Below, piece by piece: positions 170 to 6,731 of a stretch of 64,000 nt of DNA. Each line of letters starts with the position of its first letter. Position 1 is the first letter of the stretch. Where the stretch lies: NCBI GenBank assembly GCA_018268855.1, contig JAFDVR010000008.1, positions 124,001-188,000 of the forward strand, in the 5' to 3' direction. The position numbers were made by a program, and so were the translations under genes. This DNA is from Acidobacteriota bacterium. Lineage in GTDB: Bacteria; Acidobacteriota; Terriglobia; Terriglobales; Acidobacteriaceae. The notes under the pieces are model-generated. The model saw only the letters and a program-made list of their open reading frames with translations, did not search any database and was not told where the DNA came from.

Positions 170-3100
170 TTAGAAGCTCTGTCCAATGGAGAAGAAAAAC
201 TGGAATTTACTCGCATGACCGACCTGATGGTTCGGTTGCGGCTTGGTGTAATCGTCAATGATGGGATACACCGGCGGATTCAGGTTGTAAGCAAAGTCAA
301 GACGGATTGGACCTACCGGCGTACCATAACGAGCGCCGAGACCAACGGCATGCGAGAAGTATGCAAAGTCACACGTGCCCGTCTGCTGAAACCCGTAGAC
401 GTTGTAGCAGGTCGATTTGTTCGGTTGGCTAAACCGCCCGAACGACGGCCACAAGTCCTTGATATTCAGAAAGACATTCCCCATATCATGGAAGAGAACA
501 AAAGACACACTTGAACCCACCAGCGGCAGTGTCGGAGGAGGCAGACGAAGTTCCAGCGTATTGATGAAGACGGCGCTTCCACCCACCGGGAATCCTGTCG
601 TCAGATCGCGCGGACCGGCAGAATTGAGAGAAAAGCCGCGATGCGAAGTTCCACCACCGGCATACAGTCGCTCTGGCAGCGGTACTGGCTGGCAGCTTGC
701 ATTCGTTGTCAGAAGGATGCCGAGACAGCTTGGCGTGCCGACGTTCGGATTTGTTCCTGAAGCATTCTCAAAACCGAAACGTGTGTTGCGCGCAAAGGTG
801 TATTTCCGCTTGGTTCCCCAGGTGTAATACGTCGCGTAGGCAATATCGGTACGCGTGAAATTTGTCTGCGATCCGAAGGCGCTGTTGGACAAAAACTCCT
901 GCACAGAAAGATAGCGTCCACGCTGCGCATCCAGTGGTGAGGGCGAGCGTGTGTCGTGGAACCATGTAACACCGGGGCCACCTACGCGCACCGGCTGCGA
1001 TAGCAAGGGAATCAGGTTCGCCGTTACCTGAAGACTGTTTTGATCGACGCTCACGCGACGGTAGGTAAAGTCATAAATAAAGGTGTCCGCACGCGGGACC
1101 TTTTGCGTGATACGGAAGAGCCCTTGCAGGGTGGATGCCTTGAACGTGGAGATGTTCTGCACGTTGGAATATCCGCCACTCACCAGTCCTGTCAGATTGT
1201 CGTTGTTAAATAAACGCGGAAGGTTATACGACAACGTCGCCACCCGCTCCAGCAAGCCATAGGTCGTATGCAGCGTAAGCGACCGGTCCGATCCACGCAG
1301 ATTGATGCGCGTCACATCCAGCGAAACGCGGAAAGATGCACCTGCCTTTCCACCCGGCGTACAGGACGTAGCTCCAATGGAAGCCTGCGCACGACAGTTA
1401 GTCTGCGGCTGGCCTGTCTGCGCCTCAAAACCAGCACCATACGTAACATCCCACCGCTTTGCTTCGGTCAATTGCACCAATACATTTTTGCGATCGGCGA
1501 GCCCTTCGGGATTTTGCACCGCAACATTTGCCTGATTGAAAATTGCCAGATCGTACAACTTGCGCTGTGTTTCGACGAGCGCGCTCTGGTCCAGCGGGTC
1601 ACCGGGCTTAAGTTGAAGCTGACGGTTAATCAGCGCAGGTTTCGTTCTCTCTGCGCCGGAGACCAACACTTTATGGACGAACACCTGCTCGCCTTCCACG
1701 ACCTGAAAGGCAATATCGGTGAGGCTCGGATCGGCGTCCTCCACCTTTTGCCGCACCTCAACCTTGGCCTGATCGAAGCCGTTGGAAAGGTAGTACTGCA
1801 GAATGGCATCGCGATCGGCGGAGACGGTATTCAGGGAGAACGGCTGGCCTCCAATCACGTTCATCATGCCGCGCACTTCTGATTCGCGCTGCGCATCGAC
1901 ACCGGCAATGGTTACTTTGCCGAACTTCTGCTGTTCGCCTTCGATGATGTTCACCTTTACGCGAATCTGTGCCAGCTTACCTTTGTCCTCTGCCCGTTCG
2001 ATTTTGGTTTCTACTTTGACATGTGTGAATCCGTTCGCGTGATACAGCGACGTAATGGAATCCACATCGTTCTGCAACAGCGCCTGCGAGTAGCGCCCGT
2101 TACGCACAAAGGGGTCGGCTTTTACCACCTGCATGCGCTCGCGCATCGTGTCCAGATCGAAGTATTTATTGCCGGTCACATCCACGCTCACCACGCGGTA
2201 CTTTTGCCCCGGCGTGCACTGGAACACGACTGTCTGCTGCGGCGTTCCCACCCCTTCAATATGCGGGTCGACCTGCGCATCGAAGTATCCCTGCCTCTGC
2301 AGGAACTCACGAATATTATGTGCACCTTCATTCAGCAGATCGTTATCGACAGTGCTTTCTTCATAGATCGGCAGCAGTTTCTTCTGGCGCGACTTCGATA
2401 CCTTGGCACCCTGGATCACCACCTTTACCACCGGGCCCTGCTCAGCGTTGAAGCGGTAGTCAAGCTGCTTGCGCGGTGGGGCATACTCCTGCTTCTCCAG
2501 TGCGACCTTCGCCTCCAGACGATCTTTCTTTTGATAATGCTGGCGCAGACGCGTAAGCGCGTTGCTGGTAGTATCGCGCGTTACTTTCTTGCCTTGTTTC
2601 AGCTTGCCCGTCTTGCGAAACTCCTCCACCGTCATTCCCGGATCTTTGCCATCCAGTGCTACGTTTCCGATACGGGCCTGAACGCCCTGCACTACGGTGT
2701 ACGTGATATTGACCAGCTTGTTCTCTTCATCGCGAGTGATTGCCGACGTTACAGTCGAATCGTAATAACCGTTCTGCGCAAGCGCCTGCTTGATATTCGT
2801 GGCGCCGGTCTCCACCTGTGACGGGGTGTACCGTGTGCCCGGCTGAAGCTGCGTGGAATACTCCACGATGGATAGCAATCGAGTCGGCCTTACACCTTCT
2901 ACCAGCACCCGTCCAATGAAATAGCGCGGTGTGCCACGGAAGATGATCGTTACTGCGCGCTGATTGCCCATGCCACTCGCCACGCCGCGCACATCAATAT
3001 CGCGATACAACCCGGTGGCGTAAAGACGGCGCACCGTGGCCCGCAATCCAGCAGGATCAAGAAGCTGCCCACTCTGCACCTGGAACTCCTTGCGAATGGC

Positions 3101-3475
3101 ATCTTCCTGATCGAAATCCACGCCTTCAAACTCCACCTTGTCGATGCGTACGCCGCGGTACTTCCATAGGGTGCTTGGCACGGCCACTGCGGCCGCTTTT
3201 TCGGCGTCGGCCTGAGAGGTATCTCCAGAAACAGCTGCACCGGTCGGCCCACCATCTGGATGAGGTGAGGCCGTGGTCTGTCCAGGAATAGCGCTCTTCC
3301 CCGCCTGATTGCCTGAAGGTGCAGCGGAAGCGGCAGCCCCCGTGGATGCTGCCTGCGCGCACAAATAAGGGCCTGCCGCAAGGACGGCCAGCAGCGCCAC
3401 CACAGGCATCCAAAGCCCGTTCGCGCGGTCACTTATCCATTTGAAGGCCCGCAAGCTGCCCATTCCTTTCAACAT
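170..3475 (-). CDS. bamA: Omp85-family outer membrane assembly factor (BamA-like) with seven POTRA-like repeats
   Basis: About 1100 residues, against roughly 800 for E. coli BamA. From the N-terminus: a signal sequence ending near LCAQA, an Ala/Pro/Gly-rich linker, seven successive POTRA-like units, and a C-terminal 16-strand Omp85 barrel that ends in the aromatic residue Phe (SIGQSF). The POTRA-like units begin near RIDKVEFEG, FIGRVLVEG, RIGNVALDG, VVKVVIQGA, VVSVDVTGN, FGKVTIAGV and VHKVLVSGA. The protein should fold and insert beta-barrel proteins into the outer membrane. The frame is open to a TTG at 3538, but the ATG at 3475 gives a normal signal peptide and is preferred. TamA-like or other Omp85 roles cannot be excluded, though the repeat number and core position favour BamA. 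Confidence 0.88.
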   Translation of the reverse strand: MLKGMGSLRAFKWISDRANGLWMPVVALLAVLAAGPYLCAQAASTGAAASAAPSGNQAGKSAIPGQTTASPHPDGGPTGAAVSGDTSQADAEKAAAVAVPSTLWKYRGVRIDKVEFEGVDFDQEDAIRKEFQVQSGQLLDPAGLRATVRRLYATGLYRDIDVRGVASGMGNQRAVTIIFRGTPRYFIGRVLVEGVRPTRLLSIVEYSTQLQPGTRYTPSQVETGATNIKQALAQNGYYDSTVTSAITRDEENKLVNITYTVVQGVQARIGNVALDGKDPGMTVEEFRKTGKLKQGKKVTRDTTSNALTRLRQHYQKKDRLEAKVALEKQEYAPPRKQLDYRFNAEQGPVVKVVIQGAKVSKSRQKKLLPIYEESTVDNDLLNEGAHNIREFLQRQGYFDAQVDPHIEGVGTPQQTVVFQCTPGQKYRVVSVDVTGNKYFDLDTMRERMQVVKADPFVRNGRYSQALLQNDVDSITSLYHANGFTHVKVETKIERAEDKGKLAQIRVKVNIIEGEQQKFGKVTIAGVDAQRESEVRGMMNVIGGQPFSLNTVSADRDAILQYYLSNGFDQAKVEVRQKVEDADPSLTDIAFQVVEGEQVFVHKVLVSGAERTKPALINRQLQLKPGDPLDQSALVETQRKLYDLAIFNQANVAVQNPEGLADRKNVLVQLTEAKRWDVTYGAGFEAQTGQPQTNCRAQASIGATSCTPGGKAGASFRVSLDVTRINLRGSDRSLTLHTTYGLLERVATLSYNLPRLFNNDNLTGLVSGGYSNVQNISTFKASTLQGLFRITQKVPRADTFIYDFTYRRVSVDQNSLQVTANLIPLLSQPVRVGGPGVTWFHDTRSPSPLDAQRGRYLSVQEFLSNSAFGSQTNFTRTDIAYATYYTWGTKRKYTFARNTRFGFENASGTNPNVGTPSCLGILLTTNASCQPVPLPERLYAGGGTSHRGFSLNSAGPRDLTTGFPVGGSAVFINTLELRLPPPTLPLVGSSVSFVLFHDMGNVFLNIKDLWPSFGRFSQPNKSTCYNVYGFQQTGTCDFAYFSHAVGLGARYGTPVGPIRLDFAYNLNPPVYPIIDDYTKPQPNHQVGHASKFQFFFSIGQSF

Positions 3476-3618
3476 CTTCACCGTTGCAGGCCTGCATTCG
3501 TGCCGCTTTGACCGCAACCGGAGTTCCTTCCTAAGCAACTGATAGAGCGTCAGATGCTAACTTTCGCCAGAGGGTTCGCCATGAGATATCCGGGCACCCT
3601 CTACGCAAGCACCCTCTC

Positions 3619-3624
3619 TACAAT
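3619..3624 (+). promoter_or_regulatory. possible -10 element TACAAT of the ThiF-like gene
   Basis: TACAAT lies 8 nt before an in-frame ATG at 3633 and directly before the ATG at 3627. No Shine-Dalgarno sequence precedes either ATG. If this is the -10 box, transcription would start at or very near the start codon, giving a leaderless mRNA. No convincing -35 box is seen. Just upstream, GCACCCTCTAC is nearly duplicated in tandem (3593-3620). Confidence 0.35.
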
Positions 3625-3626
3625 AG

Positions 3627-4688
3627 ATGGGAATGTCTTCCACGCCTCAAAGTGCGTTCTCCATCTCCCCCGCCGAGCGATACTCCCGCCAAACCTTATT
3701 TGGTCCCATTGGCAAAGAGGGCCAGCAGAAGCTCGCCACTGCGCACATCGCCATTGTGGGCTGCGGGGCAACCGGCGCAGCGCTCGCTGGCCTGCTTGCA
3801 CGCGCTGGCGTTGGGACGCTTACGATCATCGATCGCGATTATGTAGAACCTTCCAATCTTCAGCGGCAGGTACTCTTCAATGAAGCCGACGCTGCTGCCT
3901 GTCTCCCAAAAGCAGAAGCGGCCAAACAGCACATCGCGCGATTTAACAGCGACATCGCCGTGCACGCGCATATCGCTGACCTTACCCCGGCTAACATCCC
4001 TGAACTGTTGAACGGTCCGCAACTCATTCTCGACGCCACCGACAATTTCGAGACACGCTACCTGCTTAACGACTTCGCAGTCGCGAACCATCTTCCATGG
4101 ATTTACACGGCTGCGATCGGCTCGTACGCAGCGACCATGAATATTCTGCCTTCGGGCGAGCACCGCACTGCGTGTCTTGCCTGTATCTTTCCCGCAGCAC
4201 CCAGCGGGACCGTCGAGACCTGCGACACAGCCGGCATTCTCAATACAGCAGTCAACTTCGCTGCCTCCATCGCTGCCACCGAAGCGATCAAGTTTGCTGC
4301 CGGTGACCTCGCTTCCATGCGACGCACCCTTTTATCAAACGATCTATGGACCGGAGAACGCTCAGAGATTCGTACAGGTAAACCATGGCCTGACTGCATC
4401 ACCTGCGGTCAGCGCAATTTCCCGCACTTGCGTGGCGAAGGGCGTCCACACATTACCCTTTGTGGACGCAACTCTGTTCAAATCCATGAGCATCATCGTC
4501 CGGTAGACTTTAGTGAACTCGAAGCTCGTCTGGTTACGCACGGCACAGTGCGCCGCAATGAAATGCTTCTGCGTTTTGAACGCGCACCTTTCACCATGAC
4601 GGTCTTTGCAGATGGTCGCGCCCTGATTCAAGGGACTACGGATGTCTCCGCTGCACGCACCTTCTATGCGCGTTTTATTGGCTCATAA
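3627..4688 (+). CDS. ThiF/MoeB/HesA-family adenylyltransferase
   Basis: 353 residues of the E1-like family that adenylates the C-terminus of a sulfur-carrier protein (ThiS or MoaD type). Visible are the nucleotide-binding loop GCGATG (45-50), SNLQRQ (76-81), the DATDNFETR motif (136-144), a candidate catalytic Cys199 in CDTAG, and two CxxC pairs (183-186 and 257-260) that should bind zinc. The first CxxC is further from the second than is usual, but the pattern fits. About 90 residues follow the second CxxC and have no rhodanese signature. No carrier-protein gene lies next to it, so thiamine, molybdopterin or another sulfur-transfer role cannot be decided. It is divergent from bamA. The ATG at 3633 is an alternative start. 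Confidence 0.85.
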   Translation: MGMSSTPQSAFSISPAERYSRQTLFGPIGKEGQQKLATAHIAIVGCGATGAALAGLLARAGVGTLTIIDRDYVEPSNLQRQVLFNEADAAACLPKAEAAKQHIARFNSDIAVHAHIADLTPANIPELLNGPQLILDATDNFETRYLLNDFAVANHLPWIYTAAIGSYAATMNILPSGEHRTACLACIFPAAPSGTVETCDTAGILNTAVNFAASIAATEAIKFAAGDLASMRRTLLSNDLWTGERSEIRTGKPWPDCITCGQRNFPHLRGEGRPHITLCGRNSVQIHEHHRPVDFSELEARLVTHGTVRRNEMLLRFERAPFTMTVFADGRALIQGTTDVSAARTFYARFIGS

Positions 4689-4890
4689 TTTGCAATTTTG
4701 AGGCAATCTCCTGCGGATTGTGCGCCTTATACAACTGCAATGCTTTTTTCTGCCTCTAAAAACATGGGCGAGATTGTTCGCTCGGGCCACTTCGACAAAC
4801 CCTGATATGGTTAACGCCACGCATGGGGCTTTGCTCGACCAACAGAATCTATTCCCGGTTAAATCTGGGGACACTGGAACTGGAAAGCGC

Positions 4891-5541
4891 ATGCAGGTGC
4901 AAACGTACGGAATGACAACACAAAACGGCACGCCAGGCCTCTTCAAGCGGAATCCGCCGATCGCGGGGGAAGCAGACGCAATCGAACGCGCCAAAAATGG
5001 TGACGCAGACGCTTTCTCCAAGCTTTATGCCTTACATAAACGGCGCGTATATACCCTTTGTCTGCGCATGCTCGGCAACGTCTCCGAAGCCGAGGACATG
5101 ACGCAGGAAGCCTTCCTTCATCTCTACCGCAAGCTCGGCAGCTTCCGCGGCGAAAGCGCTTTTTCCACCTGGCTCCACCGCCTCACGGTGAATCTGGTGC
5201 TCATGCACCTGCGCAAAAAGGGCCTGCAGCTTGTATCGCTTGAGGAGACGATCAACCCTTCTGAGGAAGATGCTCCGAAGCGCGACTTCGGCAGCCGCGA
5301 TCCGCATCTCGCCGGCTCCGTCGATCGTGTTGCTCTGGAACGGGCTGTCGCCACGTTGCCTCCTGGATACCGCCTCGTATTTGTGCTGCACGATGTGGAA
5401 GGTTTCGAACACAATGAAATTGCAGACATGCTGGAGTGCTCCACCGGCAACAGCAAGTCGCAGTTGCACAAGGCCCGTCTTAAGCTGCGCGAAATCCTGC
5501 GCCAGAACGAGGCTGTGGCAAAGATGGAGGCGGCACGATGA
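4891..5541 (+). CDS. RNA polymerase sigma-70 family factor, ECF/RpoE-like
   Basis: 216 residues with the two ECF domains. Region 2 contains [20 protein letters not shown] and a [12 protein letters not shown] block, with the promoter-melting stretch [12 protein letters not shown]. Region 4 contains [21 protein letters not shown] followed by the helix-turn-helix [25 protein letters not shown]. The frame is open further upstream, but the sequence before MQVQTYG does not look like protein and 4891 is preceded by GGAA. An ATG at 4912 is an alternative. The stop overlaps the next start as ATGA, implying coupled translation with a small partner. Both sit in front of a strong hairpin at 5845-5900. 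Confidence 0.85.
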
Positions 5542-5834
5542 CTGAGCAGAATAATCCTGCCTCAACTCAACCGGACGAGTTGACGGTTGACCAATTTCTC
5601 GAGCAGTTGCCGGAACTCTTCGCCAAATCCAGCGGCGAACGCATCTCCGAAAACCCGCAGTATGCGGAGTTGCTGCGGGCCAACCCCACAGCGGCCGAAT
5701 TAGTGCGTGATTTGGAATACATTGCCGAGCAGGCCCGCATGCTCTTACAGCCCGAGAACGAAATCGAACCTTCCGATGCTGTCTGGAGCAAAATTCAAAG
5801 TTCTCTGGGTAACGACGACAAAAAGGCAAACTGA
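5538..5834 (+). CDS. small acidic protein coupled to the sigma factor, possible regulator
   Basis: 98 residues, overlapping the sigma gene by 4 nt. It is acidic and soluble, with a predicted helical middle ([15 protein letters not shown] and [17 protein letters not shown]). There is no zinc-finger HxxxCxxC motif and no membrane segment, so it is not a standard ZAS or membrane-anchored anti-sigma factor. The coupling to the sigma gene suggests it binds or controls that factor, but this is an inference from position only. I do not recognise the family. Confidence 0.7.
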
Positions 5835-5844
5835 CCAGAATCTT

Positions 5845-5910
5845 AAGTCCCGGTTTCCGGTCTTAGCAGGAAAATCAGCCAGGACCAAAAACCGGGACTT
5901 TTGTTGTTTT
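5845..5910 (+). terminator. intrinsic terminator-like hairpin after the sigma operon
   Basis: The arms AAGTCCCGGTTT (5845-5856) and AAACCGGGACTT (5889-5900) are perfect 12-nt complements. The intervening 32 nt can extend the stem with GGTC and AGGACC. A T-rich run (TTGTTGTTTTG) follows at once. It separates the sigma operon from the aroK leader transcript. Confidence 0.75.
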
Positions 5911-5911
5911 G

Positions 5912-5940
5912 TTGCAACTTTTCTGCCCAAACGGTACTCT
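5912..5940 (+). promoter_or_regulatory. candidate weak promoter for the aroK leader transcript
   Basis: TTGCAA (5912-5917) and TACTCT (5935-5940) are separated by 17 nt and partly match the -35 and -10 consensus. A start about 7-10 nt downstream would fall at or next to the ATG at 5950, which has no Shine-Dalgarno sequence. The leader peptide may therefore be translated from a leaderless transcript. Both the promoter and the leaderless start are inferred, and the -10 match is weak. Confidence 0.35.
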
Positions 5941-5949
5941 TTACCCATC

Positions 5950-6045
5950 ATGAACGTGCGCAGATTTCAGGCCGCCTGCTTTACCTACCGCTACTGGTTT
6001 CCAGTAGCGGCTCTGGCACCTTGCGCACGAAAGGACTTCGGCTAA
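5950..6045 (+). CDS. aromatic-rich leader peptide upstream of shikimate kinase
   Basis: A 31-codon ORF from ATG to TAA. Seven of 31 residues are aromatic, and five of these fall in or just before the first hairpin as Phe11-Thr-Tyr-Arg-Tyr-Trp-Phe17 (codons 5980-6000). The Tyr, Trp and second Phe codons lie in the 5' arm and loop of a perfect 10-bp hairpin (5988-6010). Peptides of this size and bias, followed by mutually exclusive hairpins and a terminator, are the hallmark of amino-acid operon attenuators such as trpL and pheL. The next gene makes shikimate 3-phosphate, a precursor of Phe, Tyr and Trp, so the codon bias matches the pathway. There is no clear ribosome-binding site. Confidence 0.7.
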   Translation: MNVRRFQAACFTYRYWFPVAALAPCARKDFG

Positions 6046-6108
6046 CACCAGAATCCTTTCCAAATTCAGCAAGTTCCCGAGCCGCGATTCCACGAATCGC
6101 GGCTTTTT
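5988..6108 (+). promoter_or_regulatory. transcription attenuator of aroK with alternative hairpins
   Basis: Four segments can be seen. Segment 1 (5988-5997, CCGCTACTGG) pairs perfectly with segment 2 (6001-6010). Segment 3 (6080-6089, AGCCGCGATT) pairs perfectly with segment 4 (6095-6104) to form the terminator. Segment 2 extended (GCGGCTC, 6007-6013) pairs perfectly with GAGCCGC (6079-6085), and the pairing extends on both sides past single mismatches (6003-6005 with 6087-6089, and 6015-6016 with 6076-6077). The 2:3 pairing excludes both the 1:2 and 3:4 hairpins. A ribosome stalled on the Tyr/Trp/Phe codons in segment 1 would free segment 2 and prevent termination. Confidence 0.7.
6080..6108 (+). 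terminator. intrinsic terminator in the aroK leader
   Basis: A 10-bp perfect stem (6080-6089 with 6095-6104), loop CCACG, followed by five T residues (6104-6108) and then CATTTTC. It lies between the leader peptide stop (6045) and the aroK Shine-Dalgarno site (6120-6126), where the terminator of an attenuator is expected. No upstream gene needs it, since the sigma operon already has its own hairpin 200 nt earlier. Confidence 0.8.
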
Positions 6109-6134
6109 CATTTTCAGCCCAAAGGAGAATCCAG

Positions 6135-6731
6135 ATGCTTATCGCAGCTATAACCGAAGCCGCTCTACCATCGAAAGCAGTCATGCCTGTACCCGCACAC
6201 ATCCGGCGCATCATCCTCACCGGCTTTATGGGCGCGGGCAAAAGCACTGTCGGCCGCCGTCTTGCAGCGGAACTCGGCTGGAAATTCCTCGACGTAGACG
6301 CTGCCCTCGAAGAAACCTACAACTGCACCATCGCCAGTCTCTTCGAGCAGCATGGCGAAGAAGGCTTCCGCCGTTTTGAATCCTCTGCCATTGTGCGTGC
6401 TCTCGGCAGTGACCATGTTGTAGTTGCCCTCGGCGGAGGCGCTCCCGAAATTCTGACCAATCGCCTTCTGCTGGAGCAGACGCCCGGCTCGTTCGTCGTT
6501 TTTCTTGATGCTCCTTTTGGCGAACTCTTCGATCGCTGCATGCTGCAACCGGATGCAGCCATTCGTCCCGTACTTGCTAATCCTGAAGCAGCCGCAAAAC
6601 GCTTCGAGCAGCGTCTGCCCTTTTATAAGCGAGTAGCCCGTCTCACGCTCGAAACTTCAGGCCGCACACCGGAACAGACCGTGGAACAATTGCTTTCGGA
6701 GATGCGCGCTTTGCACGCTATAAAACCGTAA
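6135..6731 (+). CDS. aroK: shikimate kinase
   Basis: 198 residues. It phosphorylates shikimate at the 3-hydroxyl with ATP, the fifth step of the shikimate pathway. The Walker A loop GFMGAGKST is at 30-38. The shikimate-binding Asp is in FLDVDAALEE (51-60), Arg80 is in RRFES, the Gly-rich loop LGGGA is at 99-103, and the lid-region Arg144 is in AAIRPVL. The start at 6135 follows the strong site AAAGGAG with a good spacing. The frame is open upstream to 5901, but that part covers the attenuator and is not coding. It heads a run of same-strand genes reaching to 10796. Gluconate kinase is excluded by the LGGGA and lid motifs. Confidence 0.93.
   Translation: MLIAAITEAALPSKAVMPVPAHIRRIILTGFMGAGKSTVGRRLAAELGWKFLDVDAALEETYNCTIASLFEQHGEEGFRRFESSAIVRALGSDHVVVALGGGAPEILTNRLLLEQTPGSFVVFLDAPFGELFDRCMLQPDAAIRPVLANPEAAAKRFEQRLPFYKRVARLTLETSGRTPEQTVEQLLSEMRALHAIKP

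Follow-up and report, generated by a model that had tools for sequence, protein, structure and literature searches.

An attenuator-like leader upstream of aroK

What controls the shikimate kinase gene aroK in Acidobacteriota, and could a short open reading frame ahead of it sense the end products of its pathway? We addressed this question in a 64,000-nt window, the whole stretch of DNA analysed here (positions 124,001 to 188,000 of contig JAFDVR010000008.1, assembly GCA_018268855.1), using window coordinates throughout; all features of the leader lie on the forward strand. An initial annotation of the window had read the region as an attenuator of the trp, phe and his type, and the comparison of genomes described below supports this reading.

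The leader open reading frame, MNVRRFQAACFTYRYWFPVAALAPCARKDFG, has 31 codons, from the ATG at 5950 to the TAA at 6043-6045 (5950-6045), lacks a Shine-Dalgarno sequence and is probably leaderless. Its sensor codons, TTT ACC TAC CGC TAC TGG TTT (Phe-Thr-Tyr-Arg-Tyr-Trp-Phe; 5980-6000), run into a perfect 10-bp hairpin (1:2) between segment 1, CCGCTACTGG (5988-5997), and CCAGTAGCGG (6001-6010), the first part of segment 2 (6001-6017). Further along segment 2, GCGGCTC at 6007-6013 is complementary to GAGCCGC at 6079-6085 in segment 3 (6079-6090), which is also the 5' arm of an intrinsic terminator whose 3' arm and T tract (6104-6108) make up segment 4 (6094-6109). Re-reading the sequence placed the reading frame, hairpin, complementary segments and terminator where the annotation had put them, and terminator prediction lengthened the 10-bp stem with five Ts that it had described to 12 bp (6079-6090 / 6094-6105), with a loop of 3 and a T-rich sequence after it. 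The annotation's account of the structure was nonetheless incomplete: it missed an outer 8-bp helix that encloses hairpin 1:2, with its 5' arm, CGTGCGCA (5955-5962), five nucleotides past the leader start and its 3' arm, TGCGCACG, at 6022-6029, as well as the longer 2:3 pairing of other members of the family. The leader RNA (5947-6112) folds at -65.8 kcal/mol compared with -40.8 ± 4.0 for dinucleotide shuffles (z = -6.25), with none of 200 shuffles equally stable. The controlled gene (6135-6731), behind a GGAG Shine-Dalgarno sequence at 6124-6127, had been called aroK, in agreement with its best NCBIfam matches, which are shikimate kinase models (E 5e-31, below the strict cut-offs).

Upstream of the leader, positions 5845-5900 hold a 12-bp inverted repeat, AAGTCCCGGTTT / AAACCGGGACTT, whose arms flank a 32-nt loop and which is followed by a T-rich stretch. 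It stops just short of the predicted -35 box and might serve as a terminator for the genes before it, one sigma-factor-like (to 5541) and one of 98 residues (5538-5834). Weak Rfam matches on the minus strand at 5839-5920 were dismissed as chance, arising from an inverted repeat other than those of the leader.

A family of leaders in front of aromatic pathway genes

Searching the DNA of 150 genomes from the window's family turned up the 40-nt core of the leader at loci other than aroK, with identity of up to 98%; the genes downstream of the hits read as aroK, DAHP synthase and trpB. We then built a covariance model from a 38-nt core alone (codons F-T-Y-R-Y-W within the hairpin), so that the promoter, the start of the reading frame, the outer helix, the terminator and the downstream gene remained independent evidence. 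The model matched in 86 of 300 genomes of the family, in 24 of its 79 genera and, within the window's own genus, in each of the 19 genomes listed. A class-level sample added two further families, and a phylum-wide sample of 297 genomes gave no extra core matches beyond the class. An exact core pattern run over 84,980 species matched 34 stretches; the titles of their records name Terriglobus, Edaphobacter, Granulicella, Silvibacterium and Acidobacteria, plus one titled Verrucomicrobia bacterium (CAJCIP010000070.1), a leader-bearing record whose title looks wrong.

We collected 120 core matches, one of which was a false match within a secretin-like gene, leaving 119 leaders, from which 82 representatives were chosen. 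Genes of the aromatic pathway lay downstream of 117 of the 120, the other three being two at contig ends and the false match. The genes fell into four classes: trpB (59), aroK (22), DAHP synthase (18) and chorismate mutase operons (18), the last comprising 13 usually with DAHP synthase next and 5 with the order chorismate mutase-pheA-DAHP synthase. The annotation's attribution of the leader to aroK thus held, but its scope was too narrow, as further copies stand before trpB(A), DAHP synthase and chorismate mutase/pheA operons. The window's own genome carries a second copy, with the peptide MKLFRSFSFFTYRFWWFQERQRRSALSLSAA, at the head of an operon-like row on one strand (about 1000-6350 of G000:C13:226500-236500): trpB, trpA, chorismate mutase, DAHP synthase, a dienelactone-hydrolase-like gene and tyrA (prephenate dehydrogenase). 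In two genomes of one genus (L093 and L107) the leader is followed by a chorismate mutase gene on its own; an lpxC-like gene lies beyond it, and the stretch fetched showed no DAHP synthase.

Judged by its sequence, the leader is far beyond chance occurrence, since its core recurs at other loci and 117 of 120 matches lie ahead of aromatic amino acid genes. The leader abounds in codons for Phe, Tyr and Trp and has close relatives before other aromatic genes in one family of soil bacteria, which suggests that aromatic amino acids are most likely made in these bacteria only when ribosomes stall from their shortage.

Apparent translation and probable leaderless start of the leader

An ATG stood in frame 24, 27, 30 or 33 nt ahead of the core in 117 of the 119 leaders, and the aromatic run behind it, whose conservation in related genomes the annotation had proposed to check, was conserved in frame; the other two had no ATG in the range searched. 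Among the 82 representatives, ATGs at -21 to -36 were distributed over the three frames as 85/5/2 and stop codons as 2/46/36, a bias from which the leader reading frame looks translated. The position of the stop codon beyond segment 2, pointed out in the annotation as unusual, is conserved across the whole leader set. The 5' arm of the hairpin stays in the leader's frame, and for the 3' arm the frame is 0 in 59 leaders, 1 in 17 and 2 in 6. Because segment 2 thus occurs in all three frames, the pattern points to codons as what is kept in the first half and to RNA as what is kept in the second, and conservation through a peptide function downstream of segment 1 was rejected.

Alignment of 80 representative leaders revealed TTGNNN and TGTANNNT-like (TANNNT) boxes upstream of the ATG, most often with 10 nt between the -10 box and the ATG. 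In the window these correspond to a predicted promoter at 5912-5940 (TTGCAA at 5912-5917, a 17-nt spacer and TACTCT at 5935-5940), which a plain sigma-70 scan of the window did not call, although the aligned leaders do show one. With the -10 box about 10 nt before the ATG, transcription is expected to start near 5946-5948, within a few nucleotides of the ATG at 5950. A Shine-Dalgarno-like tetramer (GGAG, GAGG or AGGA) was present in only 3 of the 80 leaders, so the lack of one in the window, noted in the annotation, is a trait of the whole set. Together with the spacing from the conserved -10 box, it makes leaderless initiation likely, as the annotation had surmised.

Sensor codons follow the operon

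The fraction of aromatic residues at core codons 1 to 7 was 1.00, 0.03, 0.92, 0.01, 0.97, 0.83 and 0.64, falling to about 0 from codon 9. The mix of codons differed between gene classes: Trp occurred in codons 3-7 in 57 of 59 trpB, 19 of 22 aroK and 12 of 18 DAHP synthase leaders but in none of the 18 leaders of chorismate mutase/pheA operons (trpB versus chorismate mutase operons, Fisher 1e-15). With near-duplicates removed, Trp was found in 33/35 trpB versus 0/14 chorismate mutase leaders (1.8e-10), the effect of kinship on such codon swaps being lowered, not removed, by the choice of representatives. Codon 3 is nearly fixed as Tyr in the other classes and varies freely among trpB leaders (Y, F, L, D, P). 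As far as sequences can tell, the sensor codons fit the product of each operon in a way that would be hard to explain without amino acid sensing.

The first Phe codon of the core (5980-5982 and its equivalents) is TTT in 81 of 82 representatives, compared with 66 TTT and 63 TTC elsewhere in the same leaders. This codon lies outside the hairpin, so pairing is not the reason for the preference.

Predicted mutually exclusive pairings in the leader RNA

Covariation in all three stems had been proposed as a check in the annotation, and the stems differ in what they display. Hairpin 1:2 does covary: 94.2% of cells are paired, 44 cells carry double changes compared with 10.4 after shuffling, and the covariation score is 0.263, against 0.138 when shuffled and at most 0.078 with the partner slid. 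Its outer four pairs, CCGC/GCGG, barely vary, as expected if GCGG must pair with segment 3 as well. Between segments 2 and 3, GCGG:CCGC is present in 82/82 representatives; this core never varies and is therefore evidence for conservation, not for covariation. Pairing specific to each leader extends it, with duplexes of -19.9 for own partners versus -17.8 ± 0.24 for swapped partners (about nine standard deviations) and versus -18.4 ± 0.24 for partners swapped within a gene class (about six standard deviations); a longest-run measure gave the same direction. For 3:4 we have presence, a terminator scan having detected terminators with a T tract in 115 of 119 leaders and none in the other 4. The 5' arm contained GCCGC in 76 of 78 detected leader terminators compared with 1 of 22 other terminators, which rules out 2:3 pairing as a by-product of GCCGC-rich terminators generally. 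The outer helix, too, was stronger with own (-16.8 kcal/mol) than with swapped (-14.4 ± 0.33 kcal/mol) partners across leaders.

In a stall model, in which an assumed ribosome footprint was masked codon by codon and the RNA was cut at the end of segment 3, the modelled probability of 2:3 pairing was 0.98-0.93 for stalls at codons 1-5, 0.63 at codon 6 and near 0 from codon 8. This profile runs parallel to that of the aromatic codons along the core, the two being not fully independent because codons and hairpin share sequence. In the unmasked RNA at equilibrium, the model gave 0.60 for 1:2 and 0.35 for 2:3; as these are close, the off state would require that 1:2 pairs ahead of 2:3. For the leader in the window, a stall at its Trp codon yielded a 2:3 probability of only 0.08 under the assumed footprint, so Trp sensing there hinges on the true footprint, and Phe and Tyr may dominate sensing in this leader.

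The leader thus combines the features of an attenuator: an apparently translated reading frame with codons for the operon's amino acids, a hairpin 1:2 that overlaps these regulatory codons, an antiterminator 2:3 that, by partner swaps and the stall model, excludes both 1:2 and 3:4, and an intrinsic terminator 3:4 between the reading frame and the first gene. The Shine-Dalgarno sequence before the reading frame, a usual but not obligatory feature, is absent.

Proposed mechanism and alternatives

Our combined findings suggest, with a probability of roughly 0.9, that the leader is a ribosome-mediated transcription attenuator that senses charged Phe, Tyr and Trp tRNAs and controls aroK. The basis is sequence comparison, through the parts themselves, reading frame, conservation, covariation, gene association and codon matching, and from it we infer leaderless initiation, stalling, termination and its relief. 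Transcription would begin within a few nucleotides of the leader AUG, where a ribosome would start the leader peptide without a Shine-Dalgarno sequence. When charged tRNAs are ample, it would reach the stop codon past segment 2, where it would cover segment 2 (in short leaders) or let 1:2 re-form (in long leaders); with segment 2 covered or re-paired with segment 1, terminator 3:4 would halt transcription ahead of aroK. A stall at the Phe, Tyr or Trp codons would instead cover segment 1 and leave segment 2 (GCGGC and beyond) to pair with segment 3, so that no terminator would form and aroK would be transcribed. Copies of the module, with a codon mix fitted to each operon, stand ahead of trpB(A), DAHP synthase and chorismate mutase/pheA operons. 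A more far-reaching version is tentative, and we would sooner bet against it than for it: a leaderless cassette may have spread by copying to most of the pathway, heading the genes for the entry step, shikimate kinase, chorismate mutase/pheA and trpBA, as well as tyrA in one genome. Swaps of single sensor codons would have retuned it to each operon, and the outer helix would close off the leader start once the first ribosome has passed, limiting each transcript to a single reading.

Other mechanisms could underlie parts of this pattern. The terminator lies near the aroK Shine-Dalgarno sequence (6124-6127), and in a few leaders a clear terminator is missing, as would suit a leader acting on translation or via Rho, with the reading frame gating the aroK ribosome binding site or Rho and the hairpin a by-product. 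We consider this improbable, given the T-tract hairpins of nearly all leaders, the terminator 5' arm that mimics the partner of segment 2 in a way rarely found in other terminators, and a terminator-to-gene distance that is very variable across leaders, which fits control of transcription and not of the ribosome binding site. Less probable still is that the leader mainly yields a small functional protein or a trans-acting small RNA, cis control of aroK being secondary. A terminated RNA of about 160 nt is predicted at the aroK locus, and the RNA and peptide of a leaderless trp attenuator in Sinorhizobium meliloti do act in trans (PMC7298713); here, however, conservation of the peptide ends with the core and all three frames occur in segment 2, so there it is the RNA that is kept. 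A role in trans could exist alongside cis control.

The strong conservation of the core and the outer helix would also be expected of a metabolite-binding riboswitch or a tRNA-binding T-box with an incidental short reading frame. This is the least probable of the alternatives, since conservation tracks the frame of a reading frame with an ATG, the codons differ by operon, and loop and linker have no conserved pocket-like sequence. Rfam returned nothing relevant for the window's leader region at E values up to 5, and 13 leader loci had no match at gathering scores to Trp_leader, Phe_leader, T-box or other models. Control in cis by aromatic amino acids thus appears very likely.

Relation to known systems

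We found no published description of this leader in the literature searched, which was covered in part, and a 2010 survey of premature terminators left the attenuators of Acidobacteria almost all unassigned. By sequence, the family appears real and functional-looking, with a known mechanism, in a lineage without an earlier assignment as far as we found. This gives a function to one family of more than 100 members and names its regulon, and provides a way, from sequence, into the control of aromatic amino acids in a soil phylum that is among the most abundant and least tractable. Related leaders that differ by single sensor codons per operon offer natural experiments, and many leaderless sensor reading frames with fixed geometry should be useful for studying leaderless initiation and coupling to RNA polymerase.

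Like the leader described here, the familiar trp, phe and his attenuators of Proteobacteria have codons for the end product, mutually exclusive 1:2, 2:3 and 3:4 pairings and a terminator before the first gene. The present leader differs in a reading frame without a Shine-Dalgarno sequence and with its stop beyond segment 2, in having all three aromatic amino acids in a single run, in its outer helix at the start codon, and in a single core that serves four or more kinds of operon, aroK among them. The trp attenuators of Corynebacterium and Streptomyces (PMC1262725) share the leader peptide, a GC-rich terminator and a short invariant complementary core in antiterminator and terminator, but they have Trp codons only and serve trp genes or trpS; members at aroK, DAHP synthase or chorismate mutase are not reported there. 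In trpL of S. meliloti (PMC7298713), also a soil bacterium with transcription attenuation, the transcript begins at the leader ATG, as predicted here, but it serves trpE(G) only, with a 14-residue peptide of other sequence in another phylum. The polycysteine short reading frames of mycobacteria (PMC4633059; also Canestrari et al. 2020, as cited in PMC13236596) are likewise leaderless sensors before biosynthetic genes of the sensed amino acid, but they sense cysteine and are described as acting by translational attenuation, with no terminator switch. The Bacteroid-trp motif (RF01692; PMC2864571) is another candidate trp-associated leader RNA outside Proteobacteria, but belongs to Bacteroidetes and does not match the present leader. 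Set beside these systems, the mechanism appears classical, while the regulon, the outer helix and the operon-specific retuning of sensor codons appear to be new.
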